A stretch of DNA of 64,000 nucleotides from Chrysaora quinquecirrha (taxonomy: Eukaryota > Cnidaria > Scyphozoa > Semaeostomeae > Pelagiidae), in NCBI GenBank assembly GCA_014526335.1, contig JACTAT010000049.1, positions 868,001 to 932,000 on the forward strand, read 5' to 3'. Both the position numbers and the translations under genes were made by a program. Of the stretch, positions 4,073-52,189 are shown piece after piece. Numbering within the stretch: the first letter of the stretch is position 1; the number at the start of each line of letters is the position of its first letter. The notes under the pieces are model-generated. The model did no database searches and was not told the origin of the DNA. It saw nothing but the letters and a program-made list of their open reading frames with translations.

Positions 4073-4268
4073 AACTAACCCTTTAAGAAATCACTCTGAA
4101 TTAAATGCTTCAAATGTTCATCATCATAATTTATCTCAAATATATTATATTACAAAAATTATAAAAAAATTAAAAAATACCTATTTCTTATTTAGAAAAG
4201 CATTTTATATTTTAATTTATTTCTTAAATGTCTTCTGTCTTCTCCCCTTAGATGTTTTGTAGCTTCAT

Positions 4269-4493
4269 TTAAAATCGATCTATTACTTTTAACCACTCTG
4301 TTCTTCTTTCCTTCTGTGTATTCTTTCCATTCTTATTTGTTCTTTTAATAGTTTTCTTTAAATTTCGCTCTCTACCTTCTGCCAATTTTCTAGAAATTTT
4401 TGAAGACAAAACAGGTCCAGGTGCTAGTGGAATCGAAGGTTTAGGTTTATCACCCTCTAAATTCTCTTTTGAAAATGGCTTTAAGCTTTTCAA
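4269..4493 (-). CDS. Small basic protein of the virus-like block, unrecognised
   Basis: 74 codons, very rich in Lys and Arg in the second half (RKLAEGRERNLKKTIKR), with a Pro-rich linker before it. It shares strand with the capsid-like gene downstream and another basic protein upstream. Composition would suit a DNA-condensing virion core protein, but that is inferred from charge and neighbours only. Confidence 0.35.
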   Translation of the reverse strand: MKSLKPFSKENLEGDKPKPSIPLAPGPVLSSKISRKLAEGRERNLKKTIKRTNKNGKNTQKERRTEWLKVIDRF

Positions 4494-4771
4494 TAATTGA
4501 TTTTTAGTCAGCAGCTTTCCTCTTTAGAGAATTGAATATTAAACTATTATTTCTCTAATTTATAATAAAATTTGAAAGATCTCACCCAATCTTGCACTGC
4601 GAAGAAACCAGTAAAATGAACACAAAATTTCTCGTTTTCTCTACTCAATCAAAAATCATGACTAAACTAAAAACTAAAATCTTCCTACGCAAAACACGCT
4701 TTCTTTGAATCCTTATTTGGAATAACTTATTTACATATAAAAAAGGAAAAGCTGTTAAAACGGAAATAGAT

Positions 4772-5266
4772 TTATTTACATAGAAACAATGGAAAAGTGG
4801 TAAGGAAATAAAAATGATTTTTACATGAAGTAATGGAAAAACTATGAAATTCACTACACCTCCTACTGCTGTCTTCTTTATTTTTTGCATTTCTTGACCA
4901 AATGCTGAAGTTAATTTTTTTTAATGGAGGTGCAGCCTCCATCATTTTATTCACAGCTTTTCTCTTCAATTTTTTAATTTGTTTTGGGGCATTGGAAACA
5001 GCTGTCTTCACCACTCCCGCCGCTTTTGCTTTTGCTTTATTGAGAAATTTTTTACCAGCTACTTTCATTATCAATTTTGCACCAGCACTTTTAATGTTAG
5101 ACAACAACCCTCCTCCTGAAATTGGATCATGCATAGATAGTATTCCACCATGAATACTATTTCTGTAAAACCCACCATTATTATTTGCATATTTATTAAC
5201 TCTTACAATACTCATTTTGTCTCTTGCTCTTTTTTCTAAATGAGTAACTGAATACTTACTACTCAC
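4772..5266 (-). CDS. Basic Gly/Ala/Lys-rich virion core-like protein
   Basis: The ORF has 164 codons; the last 40 or so look like read-through into non-coding sequence. The central part has a GGGLLSNIKSAGAKLI amphipathic segment and then long Ala/Lys-rich helices. This resembles adenovirus pVI/pX-type core or membrane-active proteins and their adintovirus counterparts in style. A methionine at codon 18 (MSIVRVNKY) is an alternative start. It heads the minus-strand block 5266 to 2803. Function is inferred. Confidence 0.4.
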   Translation of the reverse strand: MSSKYSVTHLEKRARDKMSIVRVNKYANNNGGFYRNSIHGGILSMHDPISGGGLLSNIKSAGAKLIMKVAGKKFLNKAKAKAAGVVKTAVSNAPKQIKKLKRKAVNKMMEAAPPLKKINFSIWSRNAKNKEDSSRRCSEFHSFSITSCKNHFYFLTTFPLFLCK

Positions 5267-5559
5267 CTTTTTACTTTCTCTTATACTTTTTTTATAATAA
5301 TTAAATATTCACTCAAAAATTTTTTCAATTCTACACAGCCATCACAAAACTTGCCAGAAATTATTGACCAGACACTCTATCTTTGCTCTATTTGACCTCC
5401 CAACCCTATAGCCGGCTAAAATTTTTCCCAAATTGTTCGACCAAAAATCTGGAAGTTGGTTCTGACCCTATATATACTACTCCTACTTTGTGATTTCACA
5501 CAATCAATTGGAGAAGATATGAGATTTAGAACCAATATTTCCCCTAATGAAGCTCCTTA
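5267..5559. other. Upstream flank of virus-like block, no gene seen
   Basis: AT-rich sequence 5' of the minus-strand block. It may hold the promoter of the 5266 ORF, but no convincing element was seen. Confidence 0.4.
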
Positions 5560-11194: not shown

Positions 11195-11700
11195 GGGGAT
11201 TTGGATAAAGTGTATAGCAAATTCAAAAAATTGATTCCTAGATTGAAAAGGAAAGATGTTGAAGAATGGAGTAAAACTAGTCTTGCACATTCACTTTACA
11301 AACCAAGTAGGAAGAGCTTTAAAGGAAAGTGGACACTAACCAATAACACTGATAATTTGTGGGAATGTGATCTTGTTGATATGACTCATTTGAAAAAAGA
11401 AAACAACATTACATTCCTCTTATGCTCTATTGATATTTTTAGCAAGTATGGGTGGGTAAAGCCTCTAAAAAGAAAAACTGCAAAAGAAATTGTCAATGTG
11501 TTTAAAGAAATTTTATCAGAAAAAAAAACCTAAAAAGGTACGATCTGATAAGGGCAGCAAGTTTATAAACAAAGAATTCCAAGCTTTATTAAAGAAAACG
11601 ATATTAGGTTTTACACTGCAAAATAATGAAATAAAGGTAGCAATTGTAGAACGATTTAAAGAGGAAATGAAACCATTTTTTATTTTTTATATTCTGAATC
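11195..11700 (+). pseudogene. Polinton/adintovirus-type rve integrase fragment
   Basis: Reads WECDLVDMTHLKKEN with the first catalytic Asp, then IDIFSKYGWVKPLK, then after a frameshift near 11530 KKVRSDKGSKF with the second Asp, and VERF with the Glu region. This wording (DLVDM, FSKYxWVxPLK, DKGxEF, VERFN) is typical of Polinton and adintovirus integrases rather than Ty3 ones. The N-terminal zinc-binding part is absent; the fragment starts right at the LINE 5' end. It ends near 11700. Confidence 0.7.
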
Positions 11701-13126: not shown

Positions 13127-13222
13127 GAGTATCAAGAAAGAAAAATATTACTGCATTTCACTCTGTGTTGATGATTGATAGAATTATAGATCAATCACTT
13201 ACATTTATATTCATCTTTTCTA

Positions 13223-15068
13223 CAATCCTGGCCAAAATTATTGAGACAACAGTGATGAAGCCGTACCAGCCAACTGCCCCCCTCTCCCCCACCCAATGTT
13301 GTTGTTCCCGGCGGCAATTTTTTCCCCACCCATGATGATATACTCAAGACGACATTTCTGTCCATATGACGTTTGTCGCATTGTTGTCTCTCTTTGCGCG
13401 TTTCCTGGTGCCGCGTTATGGAGCAGGCAAATTTTCTCGTGTCGCATAGAAAATGCATAAAGTCACCAGCAAGTTCGCATAAGAAGCAATGTTCCCGAGA
13501 AGGCAATTTCGCCAGAAATACCCAACATTGATATGGGGGAGGGGGGGGGGGGGGGGGGGGCGCCACCAGCAAATTGTCTCACTTAATTCTGACAAGGATT
13601 GTCTGAATTTTTTTGTACATGTATGACAGCTGTTTTGACTATATCGTGCACAGCATTTATGGGAGCCCAACTGTTCTTGGCAGTTGCAACGGGGGACAAG
13701 CACCGCAGAATTCTGTGCAGGTGGTATGTTCATCAGGGTGACCTTTCCAGGGGGCTGGGGTGGGGTTGCCGTGGGGGCAGTTTGTCATTCTATGGAAACA
13801 ATTTGCGTATTTGTTTGTTGCCACTGTTGTCCCTCTAGACCTGTCCTCTGTTACCATCTTGTCGCCAGCGAGCATGCTGTTTGTCCTTGCAAATTGTCGC
13901 CCGTAGCGTCAGCGTTTTCTTGTCGATATTCGTGCTGTCTACATGAAGTACCTGCACCGCTATGGCCATCTAGTAAAGAAGAAACATGGCGTCTGTCTAG
14001 CGAGTGCCTCAAACTGTGTCGTTGTATTTGAGATATCTACACGTAGAGAAAGGTGTGGCTGTGAAAGATTTGCAAGTGATGTATCCACAATATTCAAGAG
14101 CAACTTTGTATCGTGACTGCAGGAAGGCAAGTGATGAACGGGCCAGTGAAAAGGCGACATACACGGGAAGGCCCAATTTGTTGTCATCAAGGGATGGGCG
14201 ACGTATCCTTAGACAAGTCCACGAACTCAGAGTAATTTCTGGAAGGTTCTCTTCAAAGCGGGTCAGACTGGAAGCTGGTTTGACGCATGTATCTGACCGG
14301 ACGGTTCGCCCTCATCTAAATAAACAGGGATACGTCTACTTGCAGAGTAGGAAAAAGGGGCTCATGTCGGTAACAGATTTGAAAAGATGGGTCAAGTTTG
14401 CAAGGGCCATGTTGTCACAGTATTCTGATGATATTTGGCAAAATGGGATAGCTTTCTATTTAGATGGAGTGAGCTTTGTCCATAAAACAAATCCACTCGA
14501 TCAGGAAAAGGCACCATCCGGTAGGATTTGGCGAAAAAAATCTGAGGGATTACTTCAAGGATGCACCAGCAAAGGAAGCAAAGTGGGGCATGGGGGAATG
14601 GTGGCCCATTATCTGGTTGCCATTTCATATGGTCAAGGAGTTCTGATATGTCAACAATATGAGAAAATGAACGGGAAATACTTTTCTTCTTTTGTGGATT
14701 AGCATTTTCCCATACTATTTGCCAAATCTGGGAAAGAGACCCATCTATTCATTCAGGATGGGGATCCAAGTCAGAATTCTAAGGTGGTTAGAGAAGGTAT
14801 GCAGAGATGTCGTGCCGAGCTGCTTGTCATTCCAGCAAGAAGTCCAGATATCAATCCTATTGAGAACATCTTTCATTCTATTCGCAAACAGCTGACGATG
14901 GATGCTATAAATGAAGATATACAGCATGAAACATATGAGGAATTTTGTACACGTGCAACAAAGACTGTTATGAACTTCCCAGCATCAGATATAGACAGAA
15001 CAATTGAATCAATGTCCAAGCGTATGCGTATGTTGATAGCGAACAATGGACAGCGACTAAAGTATTAA
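13223..15068 (+). mobile_element. Tc1/mariner-like element, copy A
   Basis: Starts at caatcctggccaaaattatt and shares about 1.57 kb with copy B at 17531-19091, beginning at the same base, which marks a true element end. The first 379 bp (13223-13601) are flanked by imperfect 28-bp inverted repeats; the second reads ttgtctcacttaattctgac. It holds a very long G-run (13533-13560). The transposase frame follows. No right-hand terminal repeat was found after 15068. Confidence 0.7.
14004..15068 (+). pseudogene. Tc1/mariner DD34E transposase, copy A, one nonsense codon
   Basis: A 355-codon frame interrupted only by TAG at 14700 (copy B has GAG there). A helix-turn-helix N-terminus (KDLQVMYPQYSRATLYR) precedes the catalytic core: AFYLDGVSF (first Asp), FIQDGDPSQNS (second Asp), and SPDINPIENIF (Glu). 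Exactly 34 residues lie between the second Asp and the Glu. No ATG precedes the frame; a TAG sits at 13998, so the true start may lie in another exon or be the MYPQ methionine. Confidence 0.8.
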
Positions 15069-15969: not shown

Positions 15970-17170
15970 CGCCTTGAGATATGTACTGTATTGTTCAGCT
16001 GGACGTACAAAATATAGGGGTATCCTTGTCCAGCACCAGATCTTTTGAAAAATGGGTCTTCGGTGCCAACAGGTGCACAGGCTGACCTTCCAGCATTTGC
16101 AGCAAGTCATGCCAAGGTATGATTTGGCTGCTCTAACGAAAGTCGTTTAATAAAATAATCTCAGCTATTTCGGCTCCTACCCACGCAAACGTTGTTGACC
16201 CTGGGTTTATAAAGCATCGATATATTTTGCATAATGGCAGTAAAAGAAAGGTCTTTCCACAATTGGCTGGCCCGACAATCATAAGATTTCTATATTTCCC
16301 ACGCCCTTTCTCCAGTAACACTTTCACAGCTCCACAGAACTCATCTTCCGGTATTTCATTAGTATTAAGCAACTCGCTCGCTGCATTTCTCCATGCCATA
16401 TTGCATCCAGGTACGCATTCTTTATCCAGGAAACTCTCAAGGATTTGTAATCTGCTCTTTTGTGATCTTGTCAGTTCATCCTTAACGTCATGCATCTCCC
16501 ACGTTGTTGTTATCAGTTCCTCCACTCTCTTTACCCCATGATTTAACACAAATTCTTTCAAGCTAGTACTCCCTTCCTTTGCCTGTGTGTGGGCTACAGC
16601 CAGCAGCTCCGTCCTGCTCTTGATGTTTTTCTTCACAAGAATATCGGCCACCATAATGTTTGTAAGTCTCTGCTTCCTTTTCCCGCGACAATTCCCTTCT
16701 GCTGGTGCCTCTGATTGATAAACTCGAGCTTGTCTTGCCCTTGTTGCCCTTGTGGTTCTCGGTGGCTCGCAAGATTGTAAATCCGGGTGTCCCTCACTCT
16801 CAATGTAGACATTGTCATCTTTTGTTACATAGCGCCAGGCTTGCTAGTATAGTTCATGAACAGATGAGAAGTTCACTGCGATTCCATATTCTAACTGCAG
16901 GTCGTTTCTAATTGCCAACCACCTTTTCGGCTCACTAAGCTTCACAGCTATATGATAATGCATGCCCCCATCCCTATGACTTTCTCTACAGCAAAACCCA
17001 GTTTATGACCCGTGCCCCTCACCTGTTAAATAGATTGACAACAGCAGCAGCAAAAGACTCTCGAGTAGGAAACTTCTCCAAATCCGCTTGACTATAAGTA
17101 ATAAGATAAACAGCTCGAGCCCTTCTCGCATTTAAAACAACTTCCTCCTCCCTATCAACCATATTAATAC
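15970..17170 (-). pseudogene. Parvovirus-like HUH-SF3 Rep (NS1-type) relic
   Basis: An endogenous relic on the minus strand. An N-terminal VYLITYSQAD strand near 17080 is followed by an HUH motif (MHYHIAVKL, about 16945-16970), then AWRYVTKDDN and a basic linker. The SF3 helicase follows in the open piece 16654-16133, with Walker A (GPANCGKTF) and a Walker B-like FAWVGAEIAEI. Helicase sequence continues in frame to about 15970 past a TAG. Several stops and frame changes break it. Domain order fits parvovirus NS1 or a related Rep that nicks and unwinds DNA. The exact viral family is uncertain. Confidence 0.6.
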
Positions 17171-17530
17171 AATTAGTAATAACACGTTCAAACGATCTGT
17201 TTTCTTAATTTCTCATTGTAGATTTGATATAATGTTATTGTATTCACTTTCTGTTACTGTAAATAAACGCCAAGGTTACGTGTGAACATATGAAACATGA
17301 GCATGCTCGATGCCACCAATGAGGTCAGAGTCTATTTTTATGCACTGACAAAAACCTTACAGGCAGCTAGGCAAGCGTGGCCTGATGCATGTCCTTGTAA
17401 AGGCAAACCCTCGAGTAAGAAACCACAGAATGAGAAACAGTGTTTCCATGCAAAAATCGCACAGCAACATGTGCAACAGCCCGAAACCCCGCATGGTGAC
17501 GTCACAAAACGTGTCTTCACCTTCTATAGA
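17171..17530. other. No supported gene
   Basis: Flank between the Rep relic and Tc1 copy B. An 88-codon plus-strand ORF (17297-17563) runs into copy B and resembles nothing known. One CRE-like TGACGTCA site lies near 17500. Confidence 0.4.
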
Positions 17531-19091
17531 CAATCCTGGCCAAAATTATTGAGACAACAGTGATGAAGCCGTACCAGCCGACTGCCCCCCCCCCTCCCCC
17601 AACCAATGTTGTTGTTCCCGGCAGCAATTTTTTCCCCACCCATGATGATATACTCAAGGCGACATTTCTGTCAATATGACGTTTGTCGCATTGTTGTCTC
17701 TCTTTGCGCGTTTCCCGGTGCTGCGTTATGGAGCAGGCGAATTTTCTTGCGTCGCATAAAAAATGCATAAAGTCACCAGCAAGTTCGCATAAGAAGCAAA
17801 GTTCCCGAGAAGGCAATTTCGCCAGAAATACCCAACATTGATATGGGGGAGGGGGGGGCGCCACCAGCAAATTGTCTCACTTAATTCTGACAAGGATTGT
17901 CTGAATTTTTTTGTACATGTATGACAGCTGTTTTGACTATATCGTGCACAGCATTAATGGGAGCCCAACTGTTCTTGGCAGTTGCAACGGGGGACAAGCA
18001 CCGCAGAATTCCGTGCAGGTGGTATGTTCATCAGGGTGACCTTTCCAGGGGGCTGGGGTGGGGTTGCCGTGGGGGCAGTTTGTCATTCTATGGAAACAAT
18101 TTGCGTATTTGTTTGTTGCCACTGTTGTCCCTCTAGACCTGTCCTCTGTTACCATCTTGTCGCCAGCGAGCATGCTGTTTGTCCTTGCAAATTGTCGCCC
18201 GTAGCGTCAGCGTTTTCTTGTCGATATTCGTGCTGTCTACATGAAGTACCTGCACCGCTATGGCCATCCAGTAAAGAAGAAACATGGCGTCTGTCTAGCA
18301 AGTGCCTCAAACTGTGTCGTTGTATTTGAGATATCTACACGTAGAGAAGGGTGTGGCTGTGAAAGATTTGCAAGTGATGTATCCACAATATTCAAGAGCA
18401 ACTTTGTATCGTCACTGCAGGAAGGCAAGTGATGAACGGGCCAGTGAAAAGGCGACATACACGGGAAGGCCCAATTTGTTGTCATCAAGGGATGGGCGAC
18501 GTATCCTTAGACAAGTCCACGAACTCAGAGTAACTTCTTCAAAGCGGGTCAGACTGGAAGCTGGTTTGACGCATGTATCTGACCGGACGGTTCGCCCTCA
18601 TCTAAATAAACAGGGATACGTCTACTTGCAGAGTAGGAAAAAGGGGCTCATGTCGGTAACAGATTTGAAAAGATGGGTCAAGTTTGCAAGGGCCATGTTG
18701 TCACAGTATTCTGATGATATTTGGCAAAATGGGATAGCTTTCTATTTAGATGGAGTGAGCTTTGTCCATAAAACAAATCCACTCGATCAGGCAAAGGCAC
18801 CATCCGGTAGGATTTGGCGAAAAAAATCTGAGGGATTACTTCAAGGATGCACCAGCAAAGGAAGCAAAGTGGGGCATGGGGGAATGGTGGCCCATTATCT
18901 GGTTGCCATTTCATATGGTCAAGGAGTTCTGATATGTCAACAATATGAGAAAATGAACGGGAAATACTTTTCTTCTTTTGTGGATGAGCATTTTCCCATA
19001 CTATTTGCCAAATCTGGGAGAGAGACCCATCTATTCATTCAGGATGGGGATCCAAGTCAGAATTCTAAGGTGGTTAGAGAAAGTATGCAGA
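17531..19091 (+). mobile_element. Tc1/mariner-like element, copy B, truncated
   Basis: Near-identical to 13223-14799 but with a much shorter G-run near 17850 and a 12-bp deletion at the codons for ISGRF. The transposase frame (from 18302) has GAG where copy A has TAG, so it lacks copy A's stop. It is cut off at 19091, before the catalytic Glu, at a junction with the virus-like block. Inverted repeats at 17531-17558 and 17872-17899 match copy A. Confidence 0.8.
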
Positions 19092-19473
19092 AAGTATCAA
19101 GACTCTGCCTCGACTTAAATTTATCAGCATAATCCAAGCTGTAACTGACCAATTCACATCGTTTATCATTAATCTCGTTGATAAGTTTCTGCAATTTTGA
19201 CTTGGTAAAAGAAAATTCACAAAGCTGGCCTTTATCCTTAACAAACTCTTCACTGTAATCTTTCGTGAAATTTTCTGGACTTATTTCTTTGCTGAAAAAA
19301 AGCGATTGCTTGCACAGGCTGAAGTGTGTGGTTTTTTCTTTATAAAACTTCCCGCCTTGTCGTTCTGATACAACCGCCTTCAAAACGTCCAATGAGTTAG
19401 TTTTATCTCCTTCTTGGACCGACACAACTTTGCTAAAAAGCTCATTTATTACGATATCTTGCTTCTCAGACAT
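19092..19473 (-). pseudogene. Unrecognised gene truncated by the Tc1 junction
   Basis: Starts MSEKQDIVINELFSK at 19473 and runs to the Tc1 copy B breakpoint, so its C-terminus is lost. Lys-, Glu- and Ser-rich and probably helical (KSKLQKLINEINDKR). It is the first gene of the virus-like block on its left edge. No family recognised. Confidence 0.5.
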
Positions 19474-19955
19474 TTTGCTTTAGTTTCGACGTTAATTATT
19501 CACCACTGTTGAAGCTGCTGAGAGTTGTTATGAAATTTGTGAGACATGAACACGGCTTTTATACTTTCACAAACAATAACTTGATTGACAACTAACTTAA
19601 ACTTTGTACTTTCAAAATTCACTTAAAACCGGTTTCAAATTCTCTTCAGTCGAATTGTTAACGCTTAAAGCGATTTCCTTCGACAATGCGAGCCAGTTGT
19701 GACCTTTTAACCTGACGCTATAAGATTAAATTCTATCGTTTATACTCGATTCGAATTCGCTTTAAGAGCTTTTCCACACTGACCTTTCAACCTCTCGTGG
19801 TGTAATTTAAACCATTCTAGCAAACCGAATTGAATAGACTAGATCAAGCTTTTATACTACGAAAGCTTTTGCTTTACACAGTTTTAAAGCTTTTTTTTCT
19901 CAAACCACGAAAATAATGTCCTATGAGTCGTTTTACTTTTAATTTTTCAAAGCCG
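19474..19955. promoter_or_regulatory. Intergenic control region with gcttaaagcgatt motifs
   Basis: A 480-bp spacer between two minus-strand genes. It contains gcttaaagcgattt near 19668 and a related gaattcgctttaag near 19756. The same motif recurs at 20826 and 20952, in the next gene-free spacer. It may be a shared promoter or binding site; no function can be read directly. Confidence 0.35.
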
Positions 19956-20207
19956 TTAGGCGCTTGCAGCTTTCTTAGTTTTATGATAACCTAAAAGGAA
20001 ATCTTTAATTCTTCTATGACAAACTCCGTAGGGTTTGTGATATCTATGATTTTTATGCGCTTTTCTAAATTCTTTTACTGAGGGAAGCACTTTCTTCGAT
20101 TTTCTTTTTCTCCCTTTTTTAGAACGCATAGCTCTAATTTGTTTCCGAGTGGACGTTAATGGAGTAATTCCAATAGGTCCAACAAATGTATTAGGCATAA
20201 ATGACAA
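19956..20207 (-). CDS. Small strongly basic protein, virion core-like
   Basis: 83 codons starting MSFMPNTFVGPIGITPL. The centre is very basic (MRSKKGRKRKSKKVL) and the end has RYHKPYGVCHRRIKDF. Size and charge resemble DNA-binding core proteins of adintovirus or adenovirus-type virions. The frame is intact. Assignment is by composition and neighbours only. Confidence 0.45.
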   Translation of the reverse strand: MSFMPNTFVGPIGITPLTSTRKQIRAMRSKKGRKRKSKKVLPSVKEFRKAHKNHRYHKPYGVCHRRIKDFLLGYHKTKKAASA

Positions 20208-20282
20208 CGATTAAAACAGACACTTGTGTTATATACGTGCTTCTCTTTAATAACTAAACAATGAAATAAAGTTTAATAAAGA

Positions 20283-20304
20283 TATTATTATTATTATTAT
20301 TACA
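20283..20304. repeat. TTA trinucleotide microsatellite
   Basis: A short run of tta units between two minus-strand genes. A separate ttg/ctg run (20402-20437) lies inside the next ORF and encodes its Gln tract. Confidence 0.8.
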
Positions 20305-20358
20305 TTCTATTATTAATTTAAATTTTCATTACTAATAAAACAGTTTCGTTTTAATCGT

Positions 20359-20643
20359 TCAATAATAAGGCATTCCTGCAGCAGACTTCATTCTATAACA
20401 TAGCTGTTGCTGTTGTTGTTGTTGTTGTTGTTGTAAGTACAAAGATGGCGCCATTGGCGGTGGAGTAACTTTTGTAAGGCAGTGAAATACATTCGATATA
20501 TATACTTTAAGTTCTTGATTATACTGCAGCGCATCATCGAGCCAATTGATAACATCGCCACGAACACCAGTAAAAAATGCTTTATCATCTGTTAACACAT
20601 CCACATAAGATTTTGAACAATTCGGTTCAGAATTAAATGACAC
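20359..20643 (-). CDS. Unrecognised ORF with polyglutamine tract
   Basis: 94 codons starting MSFNSEPNCSKSYVDVL. A run of ten Gln encoded by the ttg/ctg repeat lies near the C-terminus, followed by LCYRMKSAAGMPYY. The first half (INWLDDALQYNQELKVYI) looks globular. Family unknown; the start codon is uncertain because upstream sequence is also partly open. Confidence 0.4.
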   Translation of the reverse strand: MSFNSEPNCSKSYVDVLTDDKAFFTGVRGDVINWLDDALQYNQELKVYISNVFHCLTKVTPPPMAPSLYLQQQQQQQQQQLCYRMKSAAGMPYY

Positions 20644-21147
20644 ATCTATTTTTATCTGTTTTGAACCATGTCTTTTTAAAACTTCACAAATATGAGCAGC
20701 GACCTTCCATGAGGCTGTTTCTAATGAAAATTTTCTATAACATTAGTAGTATATAGGGAGGGTCCACCTGATTCAAATTTTAGAGTTAAGAGTTAAGGGG
20801 CTCCGTAAAAACGGATCGGGTTTGCTTAAAGCGATTTGGGTTTGTTGGAAAGGATAAGGAGCGGTGTGCGGTGTAGGATTGCAAAAGTGAATAAAGTGTT
20901 TGGTTTTGGTTTGAAAGGAATGGAGTGTAGTGTTACAAGAATGGTAAAAGCTGTGGGATTTGCTTAAAACGATTCGGCTTGATTGTAGCAGGATTTTGCG
21001 TGGTAAAAGGTGGATGGGAGTTAGCGTGTTTTTTAGTTAGAGAATGAGAGAAATAAAAAAGATGATTTGGTTTTTCAACATTTATATCGAGATTAAAAGT
21101 AAATTCAAAAGTAGTTTAATAAGATAATGTTTGTTTTCTTCGTGATT
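20644..21147. other. Spacer with repeated gcttaaa(g/a)cgatt motifs
   Basis: About 500 bp without a supported gene. It contains tttgcttaaagcgatttggg near 20822 and a variant near 20948, plus GT-rich purine-biased sequence. Probably regulatory within the virus-like block. Confidence 0.35.
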
Positions 21148-21465
21148 TCATCTGTAATGTTCGATTTCCATTTGAGTGAAAATGAGTTCTAGATCGTATA
21201 TAATATCGTTACAGCTGTTGCAATTTTGACAAGATTTGATGCAAACTTTGTACATGTTTCTCAAGTTTTCGTCTAGTGTATTCCAGAATTGACTTGCTCT
21301 ATTACGAATTAGAGCGTGATTGTCTTTGTGAGCGATGTTGTTTATGTTGTATATAGGTAGCGCTTCATGGCGAATAAAATAACCTTTAGCGAATTGCCAA
21401 ATCCTTCTATATATCAATTGTTTGGTGTGCTCGCATAGTCGGAGTAGGTCCAAATCAGGCATCAT
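21148..21465 (-). CDS. Unrecognised Cys-containing ORF of the virus-like block
   Basis: 105 codons starting MMPDLDLLRLCEHTK. It is intact and has a cysteine cluster near residues 80-90 (CIKSCQNCNSC), which could bind metal. It is read away from the cyclin homologue, with about 290 bp of shared spacer that could hold a two-way promoter. No family recognised. Confidence 0.45.
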   Translation of the reverse strand: MMPDLDLLRLCEHTKQLIYRRIWQFAKGYFIRHEALPIYNINNIAHKDNHALIRNRASQFWNTLDENLRNMYKVCIKSCQNCNSCNDIIYDLELIFTQMEIEHYR

Positions 21466-21756
21466 GAATTAAGAAGTAAGAACGAGCTTGTGTTAATCTC
21501 TGAATATAGTTTGACGTTTGTGAGAGTGCTAATCTGAGCAATGCGATTGCTGTAATTTATAGGAAGAATTATGAGTGACGTTTAGGTTTGACAGGTTGTG
21601 TTTTGACATGTCGCGTTTCCTAAAAGTGATTCTGAAGATGAATAAAGGAAAATGTGTAATCTTTGTACTTTCGAGTCATGTGATAGCTTAACCTTTACTC
21701 TTTGTGCTATTTCGATTCAAAAGTCGAATAGAAAGTGGTCTGTTTAGTTGTTTGAA

Positions 21757-22547
21757 ATGTCTGAGACAGTAGAAGTTGAAAGCGACACACAGCTAAATGA
21801 TGAGGCGTTAATTTTTGATAAAGTTGACGGTTACGAAACCGCTCTTTTGAAAGATCAAAAGAGTATTTCGTTTGCTAACAGAAAAACGTAATTGGATTGG
21901 ATTGTGGAAATAACTAAACTTGAAAAGTATTCAAGTGAGGCGATGTTTTTAACGTTTGACTATGTGGATATTGTGCTGAGAAAAAGCCCTGACATTGTGA
22001 AAGACGATTTTCAACTTATCGGGCTTACATGTTGGTATATTGCCGGGAAGTTTAAAGAGATTTATCCGTGTAAAGCCGATCATTGCGCTTGGTTGACGGA
22101 TGATTATTGCAAAGCCGAAGAAGTTGTTGAATGCGAACGTGATATATTGAATAATATACTCAAATGGCGTTTGGCTTCTAGAACATTAATGGCGATTGCC
22201 GAAAGAACCCTCTTTTTTATTGCGATGTGAAAGAAGACGGTTTTGAATGTAAGCCATTTTATAAACTGTTAATTTATTGTAAAACTTTGTAACTTGTAAC
22301 TCATATTAATTGTAAAACTTTGGAAGGTTTTTCAAAACAGGTAATAGTCTTTACTGTTTTATCGATGGTTAGAGATTGGGCTGGTGTTGATTTTGAAATT
22401 GGAAGTTTGTTTGAGAAGTTGAAAACTGAAAAACCAGGAACAATTGAAAAAATAGAACAGTGTAGATCTCGCTTAATCGTTATTATTAATAAATCGTATA
22501 AACAGAAAGATGATGTTATATATAAAAAATTAATTGCGAGTGCTTAA
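21757..22547 (+). pseudogene. Cyclin homologue carried by the virus-like block, broken
   Basis: ATG at 21757, 44 codons, then an in-frame TAA at 21889. Immediately after comes a clear cyclin box: LDWIVEITKL, LFTFDYVD-type helix 2, LIGLTCWYIAGKFKEIYP with the conserved Lys, and VECERDILNNILKW with the conserved Glu. The frame ends at 22230. After a decayed spacer with a 14-bp direct repeat, a second frame (22320-22547) looks like a C-terminal cyclin fold ending DVIYKKL. Cyclins activate CDKs. Family membership is strong; whether it was taken from a host by a virus is inference from context. Confidence 0.75.
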
Positions 22548-22556
22548 AATTGTCTC

Positions 22557-23045
22557 TTATTCATTTTTCCAGTTGTTTTTCAGAAATTCAAAATGAAGTT
22601 TGACTTCTGTGACAGGACAATGTGAATTTACTTTGGGCGCTCCCATCTCTTCTAAATTGAAAGATGCGAAACCTAATTTTACGCAAAGATCTTTCTCTAT
22701 ATGACCACCTTTATAAAGGACAACTTCAACGTTGTTGAATGACAAAATGTCATGTATCCACCTTTCGGCATCACGACAGAAGTAGCCATTTCTTGGACTG
22801 TAGTTTAACTGATGCACGTTATGTCTGCAATAGTTGAATTGTTTTTTGTATTCGGGTTGTAAGTACCTCCATGGCACACAAGGACTAAATTCATTCGAAA
22901 AAACGCATGATTTATCCAGTTTAGGCTGTTTAGCTAATAAAAGCCCCACTTTGTGAATGCATAGATGTTTTCGACCAGTCTCAGGATCGTTTCTTCCAGA
23001 ATTAACATATTCAATGTCGAGTATAGCGAGGTTTCGTATATCCAT
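22557..23045 (-). CDS. Putative DEDD-like nuclease, paralogue 1
   Basis: Starts at ATG 23045 (MDIRNLAILDIEYV). The D-I-E in the first strand recalls motif I of DEDD exonucleases. A conserved FNYCRHNVHQLNY block and VLYKGGHIEKDLC follow. It is intact, with a paralogue at 30269-30715 and a broken third copy at 30035-30240. Similar proteins occur with adintovirus or Polinton-like elements as I recall. Nuclease function is tentative. It lies between the cyclin and Bcl-2 homologues on the opposite strand. Confidence 0.5.
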   Translation of the reverse strand: MDIRNLAILDIEYVNSGRNDPETGRKHLCIHKVGLLLAKQPKLDKSCVFSNEFSPCVPWRYLQPEYKKQFNYCRHNVHQLNYSPRNGYFCRDAERWIHDILSFNNVEVVLYKGGHIEKDLCVKLGFASFNLEEMGAPKVNSHCPVTEVKLHFEFLKNNWKNE

Positions 23046-23191
23046 GTTGTTATGAAGCTTTGACAAGAGCTCTGAAAATAAAGTGAAAAAAATCAGTTGT
23101 GTTTTTATGAAATAGCTAAAATAAAATAAAGGTAAAAGTGTAATACAGTGTATTTTCTAAAAGTTGAAATAGTAAGAAAACGAAGGCTGAA

Positions 23192-23653
23192 ATGGAAAGG
23201 GAAATAATTGAACATTATTTGCTTTCAAAGGCTGGAAAAATACCTTATGAATTGATAAATAAATATGCGAAAACAATGTTAAAATTGTGCGAGGAATTAG
23301 AAGTACAACATGATGTGTTTTATAAATCAGTTCAGAGATATTATAAAGCAAAGGTAAGCAAAAAGGTCCTTGACGAGATAAACGAAGAAATGACGTCAGA
23401 CGGTCAAAATAATTGGGGGCGAATTGTCTCTGTATGTAGCTTTTGTTTTAAATGCGTTGAAAATGAAGGTTTTGAGAGTAATGAAGCAAGAGAAATAACT
23501 GAATGGTTGCATAATTACATGAAAACGCAGCAAAATTGGATAACTAACACAAAAACAAGTTGGGAAGTTTTCAATAATGTATTCGGTAAAAAACAAACGG
23601 TTTTAGAAAAATGCTTAAATAATCTGAACAGTTTTATTATAAAGTTCGTGTGA
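23192..23653 (+). CDS. Bcl-2-family homologue in the virus-like block
   Basis: 153 codons, intact. BH1 is visible at residues 71-84 (NNWGRIVSVCSF), BH2 at 114-132 (NWITNTKTSWEVFNNVFG), and a BH3-like helix near 29-38 (MLKLCEELEV). Spacing between BH1 and BH2 fits the Bcl-2 fold. There is no C-terminal membrane anchor, so the protein may be cytosolic or truncated. Family members control mitochondrial apoptosis; BH1 and BH2 together suggest a pro-survival type. Viral origin of this copy is inferred from its neighbours. Confidence 0.72.
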   Translation: MEREIIEHYLLSKAGKIPYELINKYAKTMLKLCEELEVQHDVFYKSVQRYYKAKVSKKVLDEINEEMTSDGQNNWGRIVSVCSFCFKCVENEGFESNEAREITEWLHNYMKTQQNWITNTKTSWEVFNNVFGKKQTVLEKCLNNLNSFIIKFV

Positions 23654-23703
23654 GATTATTTAGTTACCACTACGAAAACAGTCAGAAAGGACAAAACACA
23701 ACG

Positions 23704-24260
23704 ATGGAGCACGCTAAATCTGTGTATGAGTTATTATTCTTTATCGATGCCACAAAAGACATTTCATTATTAGCTGATTATGTGATAGAAACAGTTCTCG
23801 AAAATAATGTAGCGAGATATTGTACAGCGTTAGACAAATCTGAAAGAACGGATTTACAAGTTTCTTTCCGATTTCTGTTAAGAAAAGAACCTAAAGATAT
23901 AAAAACGTGGAAAAAAGAGGTTGTTGCTCGTGCTAAGAAATCTGTTGATAAAATACCAAGAATGGATTTGGTTTCGCTGCTTGATGTTATATATGAAACT
24001 ATTGATACCGAGCAAGTCGCTTTTGTTTATCCTAAAAAGAAAAACCGCCATACACCTATTTGCCTTTACCTTTACCGACTCGGAGAGATGTTGCAGAAAA
24101 TTTGAAGTTGAAAATACCAGAACCGATTAAGAAGAAACGAAGATATGATTTTACAGATGGATCAAACTCACCTGATTTGACAATATGCTCTAAGTCACCG
24201 AAGATAGAGAAAACTGAAGTCGAAGCAGAAAGCTGTTCAGAGAATGTGTTTTTTCCCTAA
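23704..24260 (+). pseudogene. Unrecognised gene with nuclear-localisation-like tail, frameshifted
   Basis: ATG at 23704 (MEHAKSVYELLFFID), 51 bases after the Bcl-2 homologue's stop. The first 130 residues look all-helical. A frame change near 24060 leads to a second piece with PEPIKKKRRYDF, a basic nuclear-signal-like run, then an acidic Ser/Glu-rich end. No family recognised. Confidence 0.45.
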
Positions 24261-24369
24261 AGTCAAATTTTGGCGGGGAAAGTTAGAACAATAGTGAAAT
24301 GTAATAAAGTCTAGACATGTTAAAGATAGAATTTTAGACAATAGATGATTGACAAGAAAGGTTGAACTA

Positions 24370-24545
24370 TGACACAGACAAACGTTTATGTTGTTTGATT
24401 GGTTGTGATAAGAATAAGAATTTAAGCTTTTGTTGTCTAGAAAAGTTGAACTTTGAAACAGACGCGCTTTTCGCTTTTTTGATTGGTTAGTTTGAAAACA
24501 AAAGACGCGCTTTTTGCTTTATTGATTGGCTAGTTTTAAAACAAA
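24370..24545 (+). promoter_or_regulatory. Repeated inverted-CCAAT promoter upstream of 24546
   Basis: Three related blocks each end in an inverted CCAAT box (tgattggtt, tgattggtt, tgattggct). Two share gacgcgcttttcgctttt or its variant. The last lies about 15 bp before ATG 24546. NF-Y binds CCAAT boxes. The arrangement looks like a compact viral-type promoter. Confidence 0.5.
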
Positions 24546-25253
24546 ATGACAAATATCACAGACCTATTTAAAATAGAAAGAGCGCGCAAATACAAACAGT
24601 CTAGTTGTGGAAAAAGTACAGTCATGCCACGAGTTGGTAAATTTGCTGAACTATCCCGTTCTTTTCAGAACGAAGGGATGTTAAATTTTAAAGAATTTTC
24701 GCCTTTAAAGAAACAAATTGTTTGCTGTGTGATTCTTGAAAAGCATTTTGAATTGTTGAGCAAAATTTTGAAAGAAATTATAAAGCCGCGCAAATTGAAT
24801 GCGAAATTGGATGATACAAAACTCTTAATTAGAATGGGTTTTGAAACACATTTTTATGGCTTTAAGCTGATGGTGGTTGAATTGTTAGTGTCAGAAATCT
24901 TTAAAGTCGTTCAGAAGCAAAATGTAAGTCAATTATACGCTTCATTTGAAGACTATATAAAAGAAACGTTAAGTTCGAAAGGCGTCAGCGAGTGTGAGAC
25001 AAAGTTAGTTAAAATAATGTTTCCATTAAATGCTCAACTTGGAAAGTTAAAGTATTTCTTTAGAAATACTGAAATTAAGCTGTTTAACAACGAAGGAGAA
25101 AAAGCTGATGTCGAATGCCAAACTATGGAAAATGATTTTACAAATGATGAGAATATGGTTGAATATACAGCGCACCTCCTTCTGAAGTTATTGACCAGCA
25201 AGAAGTTCAAGTTGTTGATCAGCAAGAAGTTCAAGTTGTTGATAGAAAATTGA
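24546..25253 (+). CDS. Unrecognised 235-codon ORF of the virus-like block
   Basis: Starts MTNITDLFKIERARKYK directly downstream of the CCAAT repeats. Helix-rich with many Lys and Phe, and no transmembrane segment. The C-terminus is a tandem KKFKLLIS-type repeat from a duplicated 18-bp stretch near 25195-25240, which may mark a frame change. No family recognised. Confidence 0.5.
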   Translation: MTNITDLFKIERARKYKQSSCGKSTVMPRVGKFAELSRSFQNEGMLNFKEFSPLKKQIVCCVILEKHFELLSKILKEIIKPRKLNAKLDDTKLLIRMGFETHFYGFKLMVVELLVSEIFKVVQKQNVSQLYASFEDYIKETLSSKGVSECETKLVKIMFPLNAQLGKLKYFFRNTEIKLFNNEGEKADVECQTMENDFTNDENMVEYTAHLLLKLLTSKKFKLLISKKFKLLIEN

Positions 25254-25328
25254 AGTCAACTCTCCATGACATGCGTGTGATTAAATAGCATAAATATAGC
25301 TAGCTGTTCTGAGCAGTCGACGTCAGAG

Positions 25329-25850
25329 TTGGTAGATAAGAAGCAAGATGTGTTATTGGAAAAACATGCATCGAATGCGTTTGATTTGCTCAAGAAGAAA
25401 AAGGTGCCTTTAAAGACTAAGGCCATTATTGAGAAGGCGATCGTAGACATCGCAACAGCACCTCTAGAGCATCCTATAATAAGCGAAAGTGAAGTTGTGG
25501 AAGCCCTCATTGATAATACGAAAGAAGAAGAATCTCAGCAACAACTACAGCAGCAGCAGCTACATCAAGAAATAAAGCAGCAACAACAGCACCTGCCACA
25601 AGTATTTGGCGATATTATGTTTGACGACTTTGATATTCCACCAAATTGTGATGAGCTAACAGAAGCGATTTCTCCTTATCCATTTCATGAAGAAAGGGAA
25701 CGGATGAGGCTATAGCAGCAGTTGCTGTTTTACCTCAACAAGAAGAAGAAGAAGAAGAAAAGAAGCCTAATGTTAATTTGTTAAATGAAGCTTTGTTAAC
25801 GAATAAAGTCTTTTCACCGTTAAACAGCAAGCCTCCAGTCAAGAGAATTT
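25329..25850 (+). pseudogene. Gln-rich acidic protein, activation-domain-like, frameshifted
   Basis: N-terminal Lys-rich helices, then a Gln-rich stretch (QQQLQQQQLHQ) and an acidic DDFDIPPNCDEL segment. The frame ends at 25715, but an alternative frame continues through a Glu run to about 25850 (LLNEALLTNKVFSPLNS). There the polymerase fragment begins on the other strand. Composition recalls transcription activators; that is inference. Confidence 0.4.
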
Positions 25851-26622
25851 CAAATGTATCAATCATCTTTTTATCGGATGCTTTTACTGGATATGACAAT
25901 CCTTCACAGTTAAGTTCATGTAAGTATCGCCGGTACGGTGCGGCTCTCTCTGCATGTGTTGATTGTGGATGTAGACGGGATAGGATTGCCCAGATGTAGC
26001 ATTTATCGTCTCTGCTCTGTACATTGAGAACAGCCTTCTTGTTTTTAATATACGTAGGTAGTTGTAAATACTTTCCACCACGAATTGCATCATAATCAAA
26101 CATCTTCACTTGTAGTTGGGTAAACTTTGTAAATATCCAACCACTTCCATTCTCCAAGAATTCATCAACCTTATCTCGCAGTGTGTTGATAGCTTCAACT
26201 ATCTGATCTTCAGCAACATCATACTCTGACCATAGAAGCGTCTGCACGGTGGTTCTGAATGTGGGTGGTGGTTCTGTAACGATAAGCTTATCACCATACT
26301 TTTTAAATTCGGCATCGATAGTGACATAATACTTCATCCCCTGCTTGTGATCTAGCAATTCTTCTTTAATTTCTCGAATAGTATGCTGTGTGATTCTTGC
26401 CCAGTCTTTGATATCTTCTTCTTCGGTATATATTCTGAATGCTTTCTTATCCATCTTGTTCATGTTCTTACCTTCGCCAACCAATTTCTTTTGTTCTGCT
26501 GCTGACGGATGTATACCATGTGCTGTTCGCTTATGTGATGCGAGATTTAACATTCTGTCAAACAATTTTCTTCGCTTACTATTATTAGCAGCTGAGCTTT
26601 CTTCTTCGTGTGACCTCTTCAT
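25851..26622 (-). pseudogene. N-terminal part of protein-primed DNA polymerase B, copy 1
   Basis: Starts MKRSHEEESSAANNSKRRK at 26622. It carries the Polinton/adintovirus polymerase leader: GSGWIFTKFTQLQV, RGGKYLQLPTYI, NKKAVLNVQ, KCYIWAILSRLHP, HAERAAPYRRYL and SYPVKASDKKMIDTFEI. The reading then diverges from copy 2 at TFEI, where a junction with the plus-strand acidic gene lies. All exonuclease and polymerase motifs are missing, so this is only about the first quarter of the protein. The gene start faces the terminal repeat. Confidence 0.7.
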
Positions 26623-26639
26623 GACTAATTTCTAACTGA

Positions 26640-27412
26640 ACTGATTTCGCTTTACGCTTCGATTTTATAGCTTGATCGAACGTGACGTTTCAATTATTAA
26701 CCAATCAGATTGCAGGATTTCTCGTTTCTAGAATCTTGTAGAACTTTCTGGAAACTTCTGGAAAGTTCTAGCCAATCAGATTGCCGGATTTCTCGTTTCT
26801 AGAATCTTGTGGAACTTTCTGGAATCTTGCGGAACATTCTGGAAACTTCTGGAAAATTCTAGCCAATCAGATTGCAGGATTATTATGTTATTTTATTTCA
26901 TAAACGATTCGAATGTCGCATTCGAATTATTACGCCATCATAATTAATCAGATTGTAGGATTTCTGGAAAGTTCTGGAAAGTTCTAGCCAATCAGATTGT
27001 AGGATTATTATGTTATTTTATTTAATAAACGATTCGAACGTCGCGTTCGAATTATTATTACACCATCATAATTAATCAATCAGATTCTGGAAACTTCTAG
27101 AAACTTCTGGAAAGTTCTAACCAATCAGATTGTAGGATTCTTAGGGATGTTCTGGAACATTCTGGAAACTTCTAGATTGTTAAATCAGAAACGAGGCTAG
27201 TGGAGAAACCATCGCACTATAGCGCGATCTAATGATGTTATTGATAATATGAGATGCGTGCGCTAGGATCTGGGACTCTTGAAAACGAGGTTGGAGAAAC
27301 CAGCATCCATAAAAACCGTTGCACTATAGCGCGACCTGATGACGTCACTGATGACGTCATTGGTAGTAGGAGCCACCTGGTAGTAGACCGCCTCCTTTAC
27401 AACCTACTCTTA
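26640..27412. promoter_or_regulatory. Terminal region with giant heat-shock-element arrays, CCAAT and CRE sites
   Basis: Five perfectly phased arrays of alternating TTC and GAA at 5-bp spacing: 26726-26768 (9 units), 26797-26859 (13), 26962-26984 (5), 27085-27117 (7) and 27150-27172 (5). A few units read TTG instead of TTC. Most arrays are followed by ccaatcagattg, a CCAAT box. Two palindromes (ttcgaatgtcgcattcgaa at 26908 and a variant at 27033) lie in a 125-bp direct repeat. Two CRE octamers TGACGTCA sit at 27340 and 27352. The region lies upstream of the polymerase gene start. Confidence 0.8.
27106..27412 (+). repeat. Left arm of a 305-bp inverted repeat (element terminus)
   Basis: Nearly the exact inverse of 29047-29350, running from ctggaaagttctaacc outward to tacaacctact. 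A related sequence near 52380-52770 also ends in gcaacctact, so this edge is probably the outer end of the element. Confidence 0.85.
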
Positions 27413-29046
27413 TTTTATTCAAGAAACATTCTTACTTACTTATTGCCATTTGCAGTTAAGAAGTCTTTACTATTTTGAACATTTTTGCCGAGATCAAGAG
27501 AACACTTATTTTATTCAAGAAACATTCTTACATAGTCATTGCCATTTGCAGTGAAGAAGTCTTTACTATTTTGAACATTTTTGCTGAGATCAAGAGAACA
27601 CTTATTTTATTCACGCAACATTCTTACTTAGTCATTGCCATTTGCAGTGAAGAAGTCTTTACTATTTTGAAAATTTTTGCCGAGATCAAGAGAACACTTA
27701 TTTTATTCCAGAAACATTCTTACTTAGTCATTGCCATTTGCAGTCAAGAAGTCTTTACTATTTTGAACATTTTTGCCGAGATCAAGAGAACACTTATTTT
27801 ATTCAAGAAACATTCTTACATAGTCATTGCCATTTGCAGTGAAGAAGTCTTTACTATCTTGAACATTTTTGCCGAGATCAAGAGAACACTTATTTTATTC
27901 AAGAAACATTCTTACTTAGTCATTGCCATTTGCAGTGAAGAAGTCTTTACTGTTTTGAACATTTTTGACGAGATCAAGAGAACACTTATTTAATTCAAGA
28001 ACCATTCTTACTTAGTCATTGTCATTTGCAGTGAAGAAGTCTTTACTATTTTGAACATTTTTGCCGAGATCAAGAGAACACTTATTTTATTCAAGAAACA
28101 CTCTTACTTAGTCATTGCCATTTGCAGTGAAGAAGTCTTTACTATTTTGAACATTTTTGCCGAGAACAAGAGAACACTTATTTTATTCAAAAAACATTCT
28201 TACTAAGTCATTGCCATTTGCAGTGAAGAAGTCTTTACTATTTTGAACATTTTTGCCGAGATCAAGAGAACACTTATTTTATTCAAGAAACATTCTTACA
28301 TAGTCATTGTCATTTGCAGTGAAGAAGTCTTTACTATTTTGAACATTTTTGCCGAGATCAAGAGAACACTTATTTTATTCAAGGAACATTCTTACATAGT
28401 CATTGCCATTTGCAGTGAAGAAGTCTTTACTATTTTGAACATTTTTGCCGAGATCAAGAGAACACTTATTTTATTCAAGAAACATTCTTACATAGTCATT
28501 GCCATTTGCAGTGAAGAAGTCTTTACTATTTTGAACATTTTTGCCGAGATCAAGAGAACACTTATTTTATTCAAGAAACATTCTTACATAGTCATTGCCA
28601 TTTGCAGTGAAGAAGTCTTTACTATTTTGAACATTTTTGCCGAGATCAAGAGAACTCTTATTTTATTCAAGAAACATTCTTACTAAGTCATTGCCATTTG
28701 CAGTGAAGAAGTCTTTACTATTTTGAACATTTTTACCGAGATCAAGAGAAGACTTATTTTATCCAAGAAACATTCTTACTTAGTCATTGCCATTTGCAGT
28801 GAAGAAGTCTTTACTATTTTGAACATTTTTGCCGAGATCAAGAGAACACTTATTTTATTCAAGAAACATTCTTACTTAGTCATTGCCATTTGCAGTGAAG
28901 AAGTCTTTACTATTTGAACATTTTTGCCGAGATCAAGAGAACACTTATTTTATTCAAGAAACATTCTTACATAGTCATTGCCATTTGCAGTGAAGAAGTC
29001 TTTACTATTTTGAACATTTTTGCCGAGATCAAGAGAACACTTATTA
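27413..29046. repeat. 96-bp satellite, 17 copies, between inverted arms
   Basis: Unit of 96 bp (gtgaagaagtctttactatt...), for example at 27551 and 27647. Because 96 is a multiple of three, a 32-residue motif (IVIAICSEEVFTILNIFAE) repeats in long open frames (27475-27993, 28243-28686). Several copies carry taa or indels, so translation is probably incidental. Copies are very similar, suggesting recent amplification. Confidence 0.95.
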
Positions 29047-29350
29047 GTAGGTTGTAAAGGAGGCGGTCTACTACCAGGTGGCTCCTACTACCAATGACGT
29101 CATCAGTGACGTCATCAGGTCCCGCTATAGTGCGACGGTTTTTATGGATGCTGGTTTCTCCAACCTCGTTTTCAAGAGTCCCAGATCCTAGCGCACGCGG
29201 CTCATACTATCAATAACATCATTAGATCGCGCTATATCGCGATGGTTTCTCCACTAGGCTCGTTTCCGATTTAACAATCTAGAAGTTTCCAGAATGTTCC
29301 AGAACATCCCTAAGAATCCTCTTATCTGATTGGTTAGAACTTTCCAGTGT
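29047..29350 (-). repeat. Right arm of the inverted repeat
   Basis: Inverse of 27106-27412. It includes the paired CRE sites (29095 and 29107), a heat-shock-element run of 5 units (29282-29304) and an inverted CCAAT box (gattggtt). Beyond 29350 a further partial copy of the cgcgatggtttctccagcctcg motif extends to about 29420. Confidence 0.85.
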
Positions 29351-30034
29351 AACGTCATCAGGTCGCGCTGGCGGTTTAATCTAACGCGATGGTTTCTCCA
29401 GCCTCGTTTTCAAGAGTTCTTGCAGTATAACACAGAATAATAAAAGAGGTTCAATAGTTCAAGTCAATTTAAAATAATTCAATTCTATTTAACAATCCAA
29501 TTCAATTTATAACATTCATAATTTATAACATTCATAATTTATAACATTCATAATTCAATTTATAACAGAGGCAATACCCAAGAAAAGCTATAACACTATA
29601 AAACTATAACTATAACTTCAACATCCAACTCTAAAAATTCAACAACCTGACTCCTATCAAATCACCTCTACATAAACAACCGATAATCACCTGACAGAGC
29701 CTAGTAATAATTATAGTAATAATTTTAATAATTTTAGTGAAAATATCCGAGGGAATAAGAATGAACACCGATTAACACCAATGGAACAATATCCGATGGA
29801 ATACGAATGAACACCAATGGAACATCTATGAACACTAAGGAACTCTGATGAACACTAATGTTTATTAATAACTTTACTTATTCGAAACGTTCAAACTAAA
29901 CAGGACCATAAATGTAAGCGAGAGATTGTGATTCTGTTAGGCGATGGAGAAAACAAGCTGGTAATTAGACGATGGTTATTTTTATTCACCATCTATCATA
30001 TGAACCAAACGGAGCAGCATTTTAATACATCTAT
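29351..30034. other. No supported gene; short repeats
   Basis: AT-rich sequence with ataacattcataattt repeated near 29510-29560 and the word gaacaccaatggaac recurring between 29780 and 29830. It may be the decayed interior of a second element. Confidence 0.45.
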
Positions 30035-30268: not shown

Positions 30269-30715
30269 TTAGATTAAATCCATACCTCGTAAAAAGATAT
30301 AATGTTCTCGAAGTTCCTCTAGAGGGTCGTGCGACCTCGCTCTCGGCGCCCCAAATTCCTCAATGTTTAGGCTGACTAGTCCCATCTTCTCACACAGCTC
30401 CCTTTCAATATCTCCACCTTTATAAAGCACAAACTGTACGTTGTTCCATTCCATGATGTCTTTTATTATTTCGACTGAATCTTCGCATCGCCATACTGCT
30501 GTTAGCGGTTTGTATGATAGATGGTGAATATTGTGCTGGCAGTAATTAAAGCTTCGTCTCCATTTAGGCTCCATTTGATTATATTCAATACAGGGGACGA
30601 ACTCTCGGACGAAACTAGTCTTGCCGTCATCAAGCAAAACAGCCAGCTTGCGTATGCATTTGTGGTCTTGTCTAGTTTGCACATACTCAATGTCTAGTAG
30701 AGCGAATCTTGGCAT
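30269..30715 (-). CDS. Putative DEDD-like nuclease, paralogue 2
   Basis: Starts at ATG 30715 (MPRFALLDIEYV). It is colinear with paralogue 1: DIE in strand one, FNYCQHNIHHLSY, then VLYKGGDIERELCEKMG and FGAPRARSHDP. Intact, 149 codons. It sits inside the second inverted-terminus side of the locus, implying it belongs to a second element. Nuclease role is tentative. Confidence 0.5.
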   Translation of the reverse strand: MPRFALLDIEYVQTRQDHKCIRKLAVLLDDGKTSFVREFVPCIEYNQMEPKWRRSFNYCQHNIHHLSYKPLTAVWRCEDSVEIIKDIMEWNNVQFVLYKGGDIERELCEKMGLVSLNIEEFGAPRARSHDPLEELREHYIFLRGMDLI

Positions 30716-30727
30716 TCTAGAAAACAA

Positions 30728-52127: not shown

Positions 52128-52189
52128 ATCATTACCTCCACCGACTAATTGATCTTGTTCTGCTGTTGACGGAACTTATTTAGCTTCGA

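Follow-up and report, generated by a model that had tools for sequence, protein, structure and literature searches.

A virus-like island in the Chrysaora quinquecirrha genome carries both a cyclin and a Bcl-2 homologue

Gammaherpesviruses carry a viral cyclin and a viral Bcl-2 in one virus, and the early region of adenoviruses combines an S-phase push (E1A) with Bcl-2-like survival (E1B-19K). A packaging ATPase is carried by Polintons and adintoviruses. Adintoviruses are integrating double-stranded DNA elements with an rve integrase and a PolB polymerase; in the excerpts covered of one account, most mammal-associated species apparently carry anti-apoptotic homologues and/or candidate oncogenes, and the words 'cyclin' and 'bcl' are absent from its text (PMC11071296). 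Excerpts of a second study deal with Drosophila adintoviruses and their possible distant homologues in ichnoviruses and hytrosaviruses (PMC8363768), and those of two further papers mention neither word (PMC10812802, PMC10675110). Bivalve iridovirus 1 is reported to encode a cyclin-like protein of G1/S type as well as a CARD/RHIM cell-death protein; the text describing it does not contain 'bcl' and presents gammaherpesvirus cyclins as D-type homologues (PMC12452177). No cyclin in an adintovirus was met in searches of open-licence papers, some of which were checked for the whole word.

We analysed a window of 64,000 nucleotides (positions 868001-932000 of its contig) in a 328-Mb assembly. It contains an island that we interpret, with a probability of roughly 0.85, as a decayed endogenous integrating virus of the Polinton/adintovirus class, belonging to a lineage with a captured cyclin/Bcl-2 cassette; its family is unproven. 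The features are listed below (window positions; L numbers denote loci elsewhere in the genome).

19097-25849, no strand: virus-derived island, delimited by alignment to sister copies
19097-19479, minus: ORF m1, truncated copy of an ORF of 339-359 aa, 81% identical to L031 7384-8460
19959-20204, minus: ORF m2, small and basic, with a 96% identical copy in L019
20362-20742, minus: ORF m3, with copies in L009 and L019
20743, no strand: rearrangement point; order of the m1-m3 block inverted relative to L013 and L032, common to L019
21151-21468, minus: ORF m4, kept in L011, L013, L016 and L019
21757-22547, plus: viral cyclin, decayed, best matches of E/A type
22557-23045, minus: DEDDh-fold exonuclease-like gene, 162 aa, from the predicted fold
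23192-23653, plus: open frame of 153 aa, without introns, for a viral Bcl-2 homologue
23704-24105, plus: ORF o5, predicted helical, kept in L011, L013, L014, L016 and L019
24546-25253, plus: ORF o6, under constraint, present in sister copies
25281-25849, plus: ORF o7 with a Q/E-rich tail, ending at the break
25849-26622, minus: DNA_pol_B_2-type polymerase start, cut at the break, 86% identical to 51513-52173
26640-27408, no strand: region upstream of the polymerase with a heat-shock-element (HSE) array, CCAAT boxes, CRE sites and a proposed terminus, CAACCTACT
30269-30718, minus: second exonuclease-like copy, 45% identical, adjoining the facing arm

The initial annotation had recognised a cyclin box in the window, and Pfam confirmed it: the piece 21892-22230 (+) matched Cyclin_N at E=8.1e-22 (77.7 bits, cut-off 23). 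In a sequence search, the top solved structure for this piece was cyclin E1 (6.6e-16), followed by D1 (2.1e-12) and A2 (6.5e-12), and the L016 cyclin matched A2 (5.2e-19), E1 (1.2e-17) and D1 (5.6e-14). Judged by best matches rather than by a tree of types, the cyclin appears closer to E1 or A2 than to the D type. The parallel with gammaherpesviruses drawn in the initial annotation stands for the pair of functions; their cyclins are D-type homologues, and their genome class is unrelated to that of the cassette element. As annotated, the cyclin is broken and the Bcl-2 is open. The ATG frame from 21757 meets an in-frame TAA at 21889-21891 and a further stop at 22228-22230, and the C-terminal part (22293-22547), which is conserved in sister copies, lies in a different frame. 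Both cyclin regions share one open frame in five of eight stretches examined (L009, L010, L011, L013 and L016), so the damage in the window cyclin is local. The five open copies gave Cyclin_N E-values of 1.8e-26, 1.5e-26, 4e-28, 6.8e-23 and 2.2e-30. Cyclin_N and Bcl-2, two of the Pfam families named in the initial annotation, scored above their cut-offs, whereas the third, Cyclin_C, had no Pfam match in the cyclin copies; a conserved region C-terminal to the cyclin box was present in 5/5 open copies. Across the ten cassettes described below, the Cyclin_N match was stop-free in seven and contained stops in three, and the L018 cyclin had stops over a longer piece.

The BH1/BH2 protein annotated about 650 bp from the cyclin was likewise borne out. 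Its ORF (23168-23653, ATG at 23192) matched Pfam Bcl-2 at 3.8e-10 (40.6 bits, cut-off 31.4), and its top solved structure was BCL2-like 10 (1.5e-8), in an alignment that takes in the BH1 motif NWGR and extends to the BH2 region. The L009 homologue scored 7e-14, above the cut-off. The BH1 motif reads NWGR in the window, L009, L011, L014, L016 and L018, and TWGR in L024. The Bcl-2 match was free of stops in 9/10 cassettes, and the L015 copy had stops over a longer piece. The seven viral Bcl-2 proteins used formed one clade, and the closest of six host-like exons was L002, at 24-30% identity. In seven host-like loci, similarity drops right after the GGWV of BH2 (GRGWV in L002), whereas the viral copies continue unbroken beyond this position. 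A protein search of public collections with the Bcl-2 sequence returned no match.

The nuclease-like gene reported between the cyclin and Bcl-2 lies on the opposite strand, 9 bp from the former and 146 bp from the latter, and its product is predicted (pLDDT 91) to fold like DEDDh 3'-5' exonucleases. Structural comparison was made by VIA-align and covered the best 1000 Foldseek chains. The predicted exonuclease is about 9-12% identical to the DEDDh enzymes ERI1/ERI3, TREX1/2 and RNase T, and shares its fold with a protein of Drosophila-associated adintovirus 2 and with ichnovirus ORFs. In the first motif, E12 was invariant and D10 nearly invariant among 22 sequences. The same type of protein search gave 22 matches for the exonuclease and 11 for the polymerase start, none of them named.

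The pair recurs in the genome. A six-frame search at E <= 0.001 listed at least 36 Bcl-2 and at least 38 Cyclin_N matches, and at least ten loci, the window included, carry a cyclin and a Bcl-2 on the same strand and in the same order, with starts 1377-1485 bp apart. Randomly placed matches (36 x 38 in 328 Mb) would yield 0.017 pairs within 2 kb, and the ten pairs are therefore not chance neighbours. An eleventh pair, on C109, is 9.7 kb apart. Twenty of the 36 Bcl-2 sites were fetched as 10-kb stretches; the other 16 comprise seven short host-like loci (L001-L007), the window and eight host-like sites with open frames of 194-239 aa. When window pieces were used in tblastn, both genes were found together in 9/20 stretches, or 10/20 counting L025, whose cyclin is represented by a C-terminal piece only. 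In the paired stretches the exonuclease was usually present too, and o5, o6 and o7 were often there with gene order kept. Bcl-2 and other cassette genes were found with no cyclin piece in L014, L017, L024 and L026; L020-L022 and L027 had a distant polymerase match only, and L023 and L028 had no match to the window pieces. The cyclin and Bcl-2 were 94 and 97% identical to those of the window in L013, 89 and 97% in L019, 72 and 79% in L011, and 70 and 71% in L016; in L009, L010, L012, L015 and L018 the figures were 45-47% for the cyclin and 30-45% for Bcl-2. By cyclin identity to the window (89-94%, 70-72% and 45-47%), the aligned copies form at least three lineages. The cassette genes have no introns.

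Comparison with sister copies delimited the island. It aligns with L019 from 19097 to 25849 in two blocks (97.6-97.9% identity) and with L013 from 20743 to 25849 (95.2%); L032 matches 19097-20743 at 82% DNA identity, and the frame corresponding to m1 has 339 aa in L019. On the left, at 19097, it adjoins a copy of a Tc3-like transposon; this copy ceases to resemble its twin at 19091. The two Tc3-like copies (13222-14805 and 17530-19091) are 97% identical, the second abutting the island. The inverted m1-m3 join (19097-20743; L019 808-2374) resembles those of fold-back defective genomes. An RxDL-like motif in o5 had pointed to a death-effector domain; this assignment was dropped, with a model pLDDT of 63.5, a best Foldseek E-value of 0.69 and no Pfam match above the cut-off. 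GC skew, considered as a mark of one replicating unit, partly tracked the coding strand and was uninformative. The PHROGs search gave nothing useful, and none of four consensus forms of the E2F site was found in 19-27.2 kb.

Genes of viral type lie beside the cassette in related copies. Beyond o7, L019 carries a P-loop, packaging-ATPase-like gene that matched Pox_A32 at 1.3e-6 (28.5 bits, cut-off 22.8). It is present in 7/20 stretches, namely L019 itself and, at 60-88% identity, L010, L011, L013, L014, L017 and L024; the L010 copy matched Pox_A32 at 7.6e-4, below the cut-off. With the L019 protein as query, L027 had a match at 33% identity. Four cassettes with both genes also have the ATPase (L010, L011, L013 and L019); at E 1e-4 and >59% identity, it was not seen in 13/20 stretches, including 6/10 with both genes. 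In five of the seven stretches (L011, L013, L014, L017 and L019) the ATPase is followed by a small basic ORF, which in our view would suit a small dsDNA virus. Integrase-like pieces are found in L012, at 2.8 kb from the cyclin, in L025, at 1.2 kb, and in the window at 11195-11527, the last with no rve match; the L012 piece matched rve at 0.011, below the Pfam cut-off. L031, in the flank of L011, contains pieces resembling a protein-primed PolB by eye; these had no polymerase HMM match and no tblastn match in two PF03175-bearing stretches. The searches made, none of them dedicated to these genes or using a hexon reference, turned up no hexon, penton or protease in the cassette element. Scans of viral contigs and of prokaryote genome contigs from public collections turned up no relative. 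Elsewhere in the window, an ORF at 16133-16843 (-) has a GPANCGKT P-loop and resembles a parvovirus NS1-type helicase by eye, with no Pfam or PHROG support; ORF remnants at 2803-5308 (-) resemble Polinton virion genes by eye, with no HMM support in the two pieces tested.

The initial annotation described a block ending in a polymerase start. That start was borne out: over 230 aa, 25738-26622 (-) has 83% identity to part of C102, and this part lies in the same open frame as a DNA_pol_B_2 (PF03175) match of 2.4e-21. However, colinearity of the island with L013 and L019 ends at 25849, and the join to the polymerase is absent from both. The 25 DNA_pol_B_2 matches listed, from the 91 of 227 candidates scored, include none at 30 kb or less from a Bcl-2 match on the list; the nearest is 33 kb away. 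This polymerase therefore most likely belongs to another, probably Polinton-type, element. Of the viral genes looked for beside the homologues in this genome, the Pox_A32 ATPase was found in some copies; the integrase stayed below the cut-off, and none of the listed PF03175 matches was near. The adintovirus-like capture proposed in the initial annotation is upheld in part: the gene identities, the pair at ten loci in at least three lineages, the constraint on the proteins (see below), the lack of introns and the ATPase neighbour of some copies are all observed, but a strict adintovirus is not established. The element resembles adintoviruses and Polintons in the packaging ATPase of some copies and, through one adintovirus protein, in the exonuclease fold; a cyclin was not met in the adintovirus papers searched.

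Ownership of the cassette by another class of integrating virus, such as a large DNA virus fragment or a distant Polinton relative, in which case the Polinton-type polymerase and termini would be later arrivals, is improbable in our judgement. The missing join in L013 and L019 agrees with it, as do the lack of a PF03175 match near cassettes among the matches listed and that of a hexon in searches not dedicated to one. So does the G1/S cyclin-like gene reported for the bivalve iridovirus (PMC12452177), also an invertebrate virus but, unlike the cassette element, a large iridovirus. Against it stand the integrase-like pieces of the window and of the surroundings of two cassettes, the exonuclease fold in an adintovirus protein and the small basic ORFs after the ATPase. 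The cassette element is best called a known kind of virus, of the Polinton/adintovirus class, whose new part is a cyclin/Bcl-2 module akin to the early genes of herpesviruses and adenoviruses.

Arrays of HSEs occur at the polymerase element next to it and elsewhere. Three-unit HSEs numbered 20, 4 and 3 at 26640-27408, 29046-29360 and 52179-52780, against 0.026, 0.01 and 0.004 in simulations, and each of these places has two CRE sites. In the window, the arrays precede each of the two polymerase starts and also occupy the facing arm; others are found in three sister loci (L015 8815-9098, L016 7178-7243 and L030 2730-3026). Their arrangement suggests that the arrays may serve as stress-driven viral terminal promoters; in the literature searched, one paper, a plant stress review, has the terms Polinton and heat shock element together. 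The arms 27107-27408 and 29046-29347 are 302 bp each and 96% complementary, and these candidate terminal repeats lie at the neighbouring polymerase element, not at the cassette element. Their inner ends are AGTAGGTTG/CAACCTACT, with CTTATT at both borders, and a 96-bp satellite in 17 copies lies between them. The arms possibly represent two viral termini, both of which entered one satellite motif.

Selection was estimated as dN/dS from Nei-Gojobori counts on the frames as they stand. Between lineages, measurable pairs gave 0.09-0.41 for the cyclin and 0.14-0.53 for Bcl-2, values for which the wide pairs are near silent-site saturation; many pairs were beyond saturation and yielded no ratio. 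For the pairs window-L011, window-L016 and L009-L018, the ratios were 0.12, 0.14 and 0.17 for the cyclin and 0.25, 0.28 and 0.14 for Bcl-2; the exonuclease and o6 gave 0.14 and 0.15 for window-L011. Against the window copy, Bcl-2 ratios were 0.17-0.42 in the nine measurable of ten pairs. Close pairs varied: window-L013 gave 0.26 for the cyclin and 0.17 for Bcl-2, and window-L019 gave 1.47 for the cyclin at a dS of 0.02. The L010-L015 Bcl-2 ratio was 0.64. We take these ratios to mean that both proteins were constrained during the life of the virus and drifted once it had inserted.

A module domesticated by the host, and serving it rather than the virus, would also show purifying selection between copies, including the window-L013 pair, and could be present in several copies per genome. 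Yet Cyclin_N contains stops in 3/10 cassettes and the window-L019 cyclin ratio is 1.47, and we regard domestication as very unlikely; broken copies are expected of an endogenous virus because it decays after insertion. Least credible is a host gene cluster, in which neighbouring host paralogues or processed copies of cyclin and Bcl-2 were duplicated along with the DNA around them. The nine cassette sites fetched are in large contigs (0.17-2.9 Mb) and both genes are of host origin by family, but the pair recurs at ten loci, an opposite-strand exonuclease sits between its members with gaps of 9 and 146 bp, a Pox_A32 ATPase lies beyond the cassette in related copies, and the genes have no introns and ~20-40% identity to the host exons compared.

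The preferred reading is that of an endogenous Polinton/adintovirus-class virus, whose lineage has a conserved cassette: cyclin, DEDDh exonuclease on the opposite strand, Bcl-2, three ORFs, then, in related copies, the ATPase and small basic proteins. The viral cyclin would bind a host CDK, probably of the CDK2 class, and drive infected cells towards S phase, in which viral DNA could be copied. The viral Bcl-2 would restrain the apoptosis triggered by this push, and the exonuclease might trim or clear nucleic acid much as TREX or ERI enzymes do. By analogy, the captured host genes would act like adenovirus E1A and E1B-19K; E1A is not a cyclin, whereas a real cyclin box would play that part in the cassette. 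A broader picture, possible but doubtful, is that of an integrating animal-virus lineage, related to adenoviruses through Polintons, with an E1-like programme made of captured host genes, namely an A/E-type cyclin whose docking motif for host inhibitors is altered, a Bcl-2, and a DEDDh exonuclease directed against nucleic-acid sensing. Neighbouring elements would contribute stress-responsive HSE terminal promoters, and the lineage would be an invertebrate counterpart of tumour viruses, recently transmitted in this host. If the preferred reading is true, viruses outside the herpesviruses have reached the pairing of cyclin and Bcl-2 in one compact cassette, which would back the idea that a virus does best to gain S-phase induction along with survival, and a class long treated as transposons would be linked to tumour-virus-like biology in an animal host.

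Ten loci of at least three lineages in a single genome provide a test of what a virus alters in a stolen cyclin. Compared with the open host cyclin on C113, nine viral-type cyclins showed 24-35% identity. Where the host protein has MRS, the window cyclin and six other viral-type copies read NRK or ERK, and the counterpart of this MRS in cyclin A2 is the MRA of MRAIL. We take the MRS/MRAIL motif to be the docking patch for CDK inhibitors and hypothesize that the NRK/ERK change might make the viral cyclin less inhibited by them. The dS of Bcl-2 between the window and L011 or L016 is 0.43 or 0.55, against 1.1-1.4 for the cyclin, exonuclease and o6 in window-L011. Silent divergence so far below that of the other genes hints that a Bcl-2 segment may have been swapped between cassette lineages. 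A 237-aa viral-type cyclin frame was also found at L035 (G000:C246:5035311-5035643), with no listed Bcl-2 match nearby; in a small tree it clusters with the cyclin of L016.
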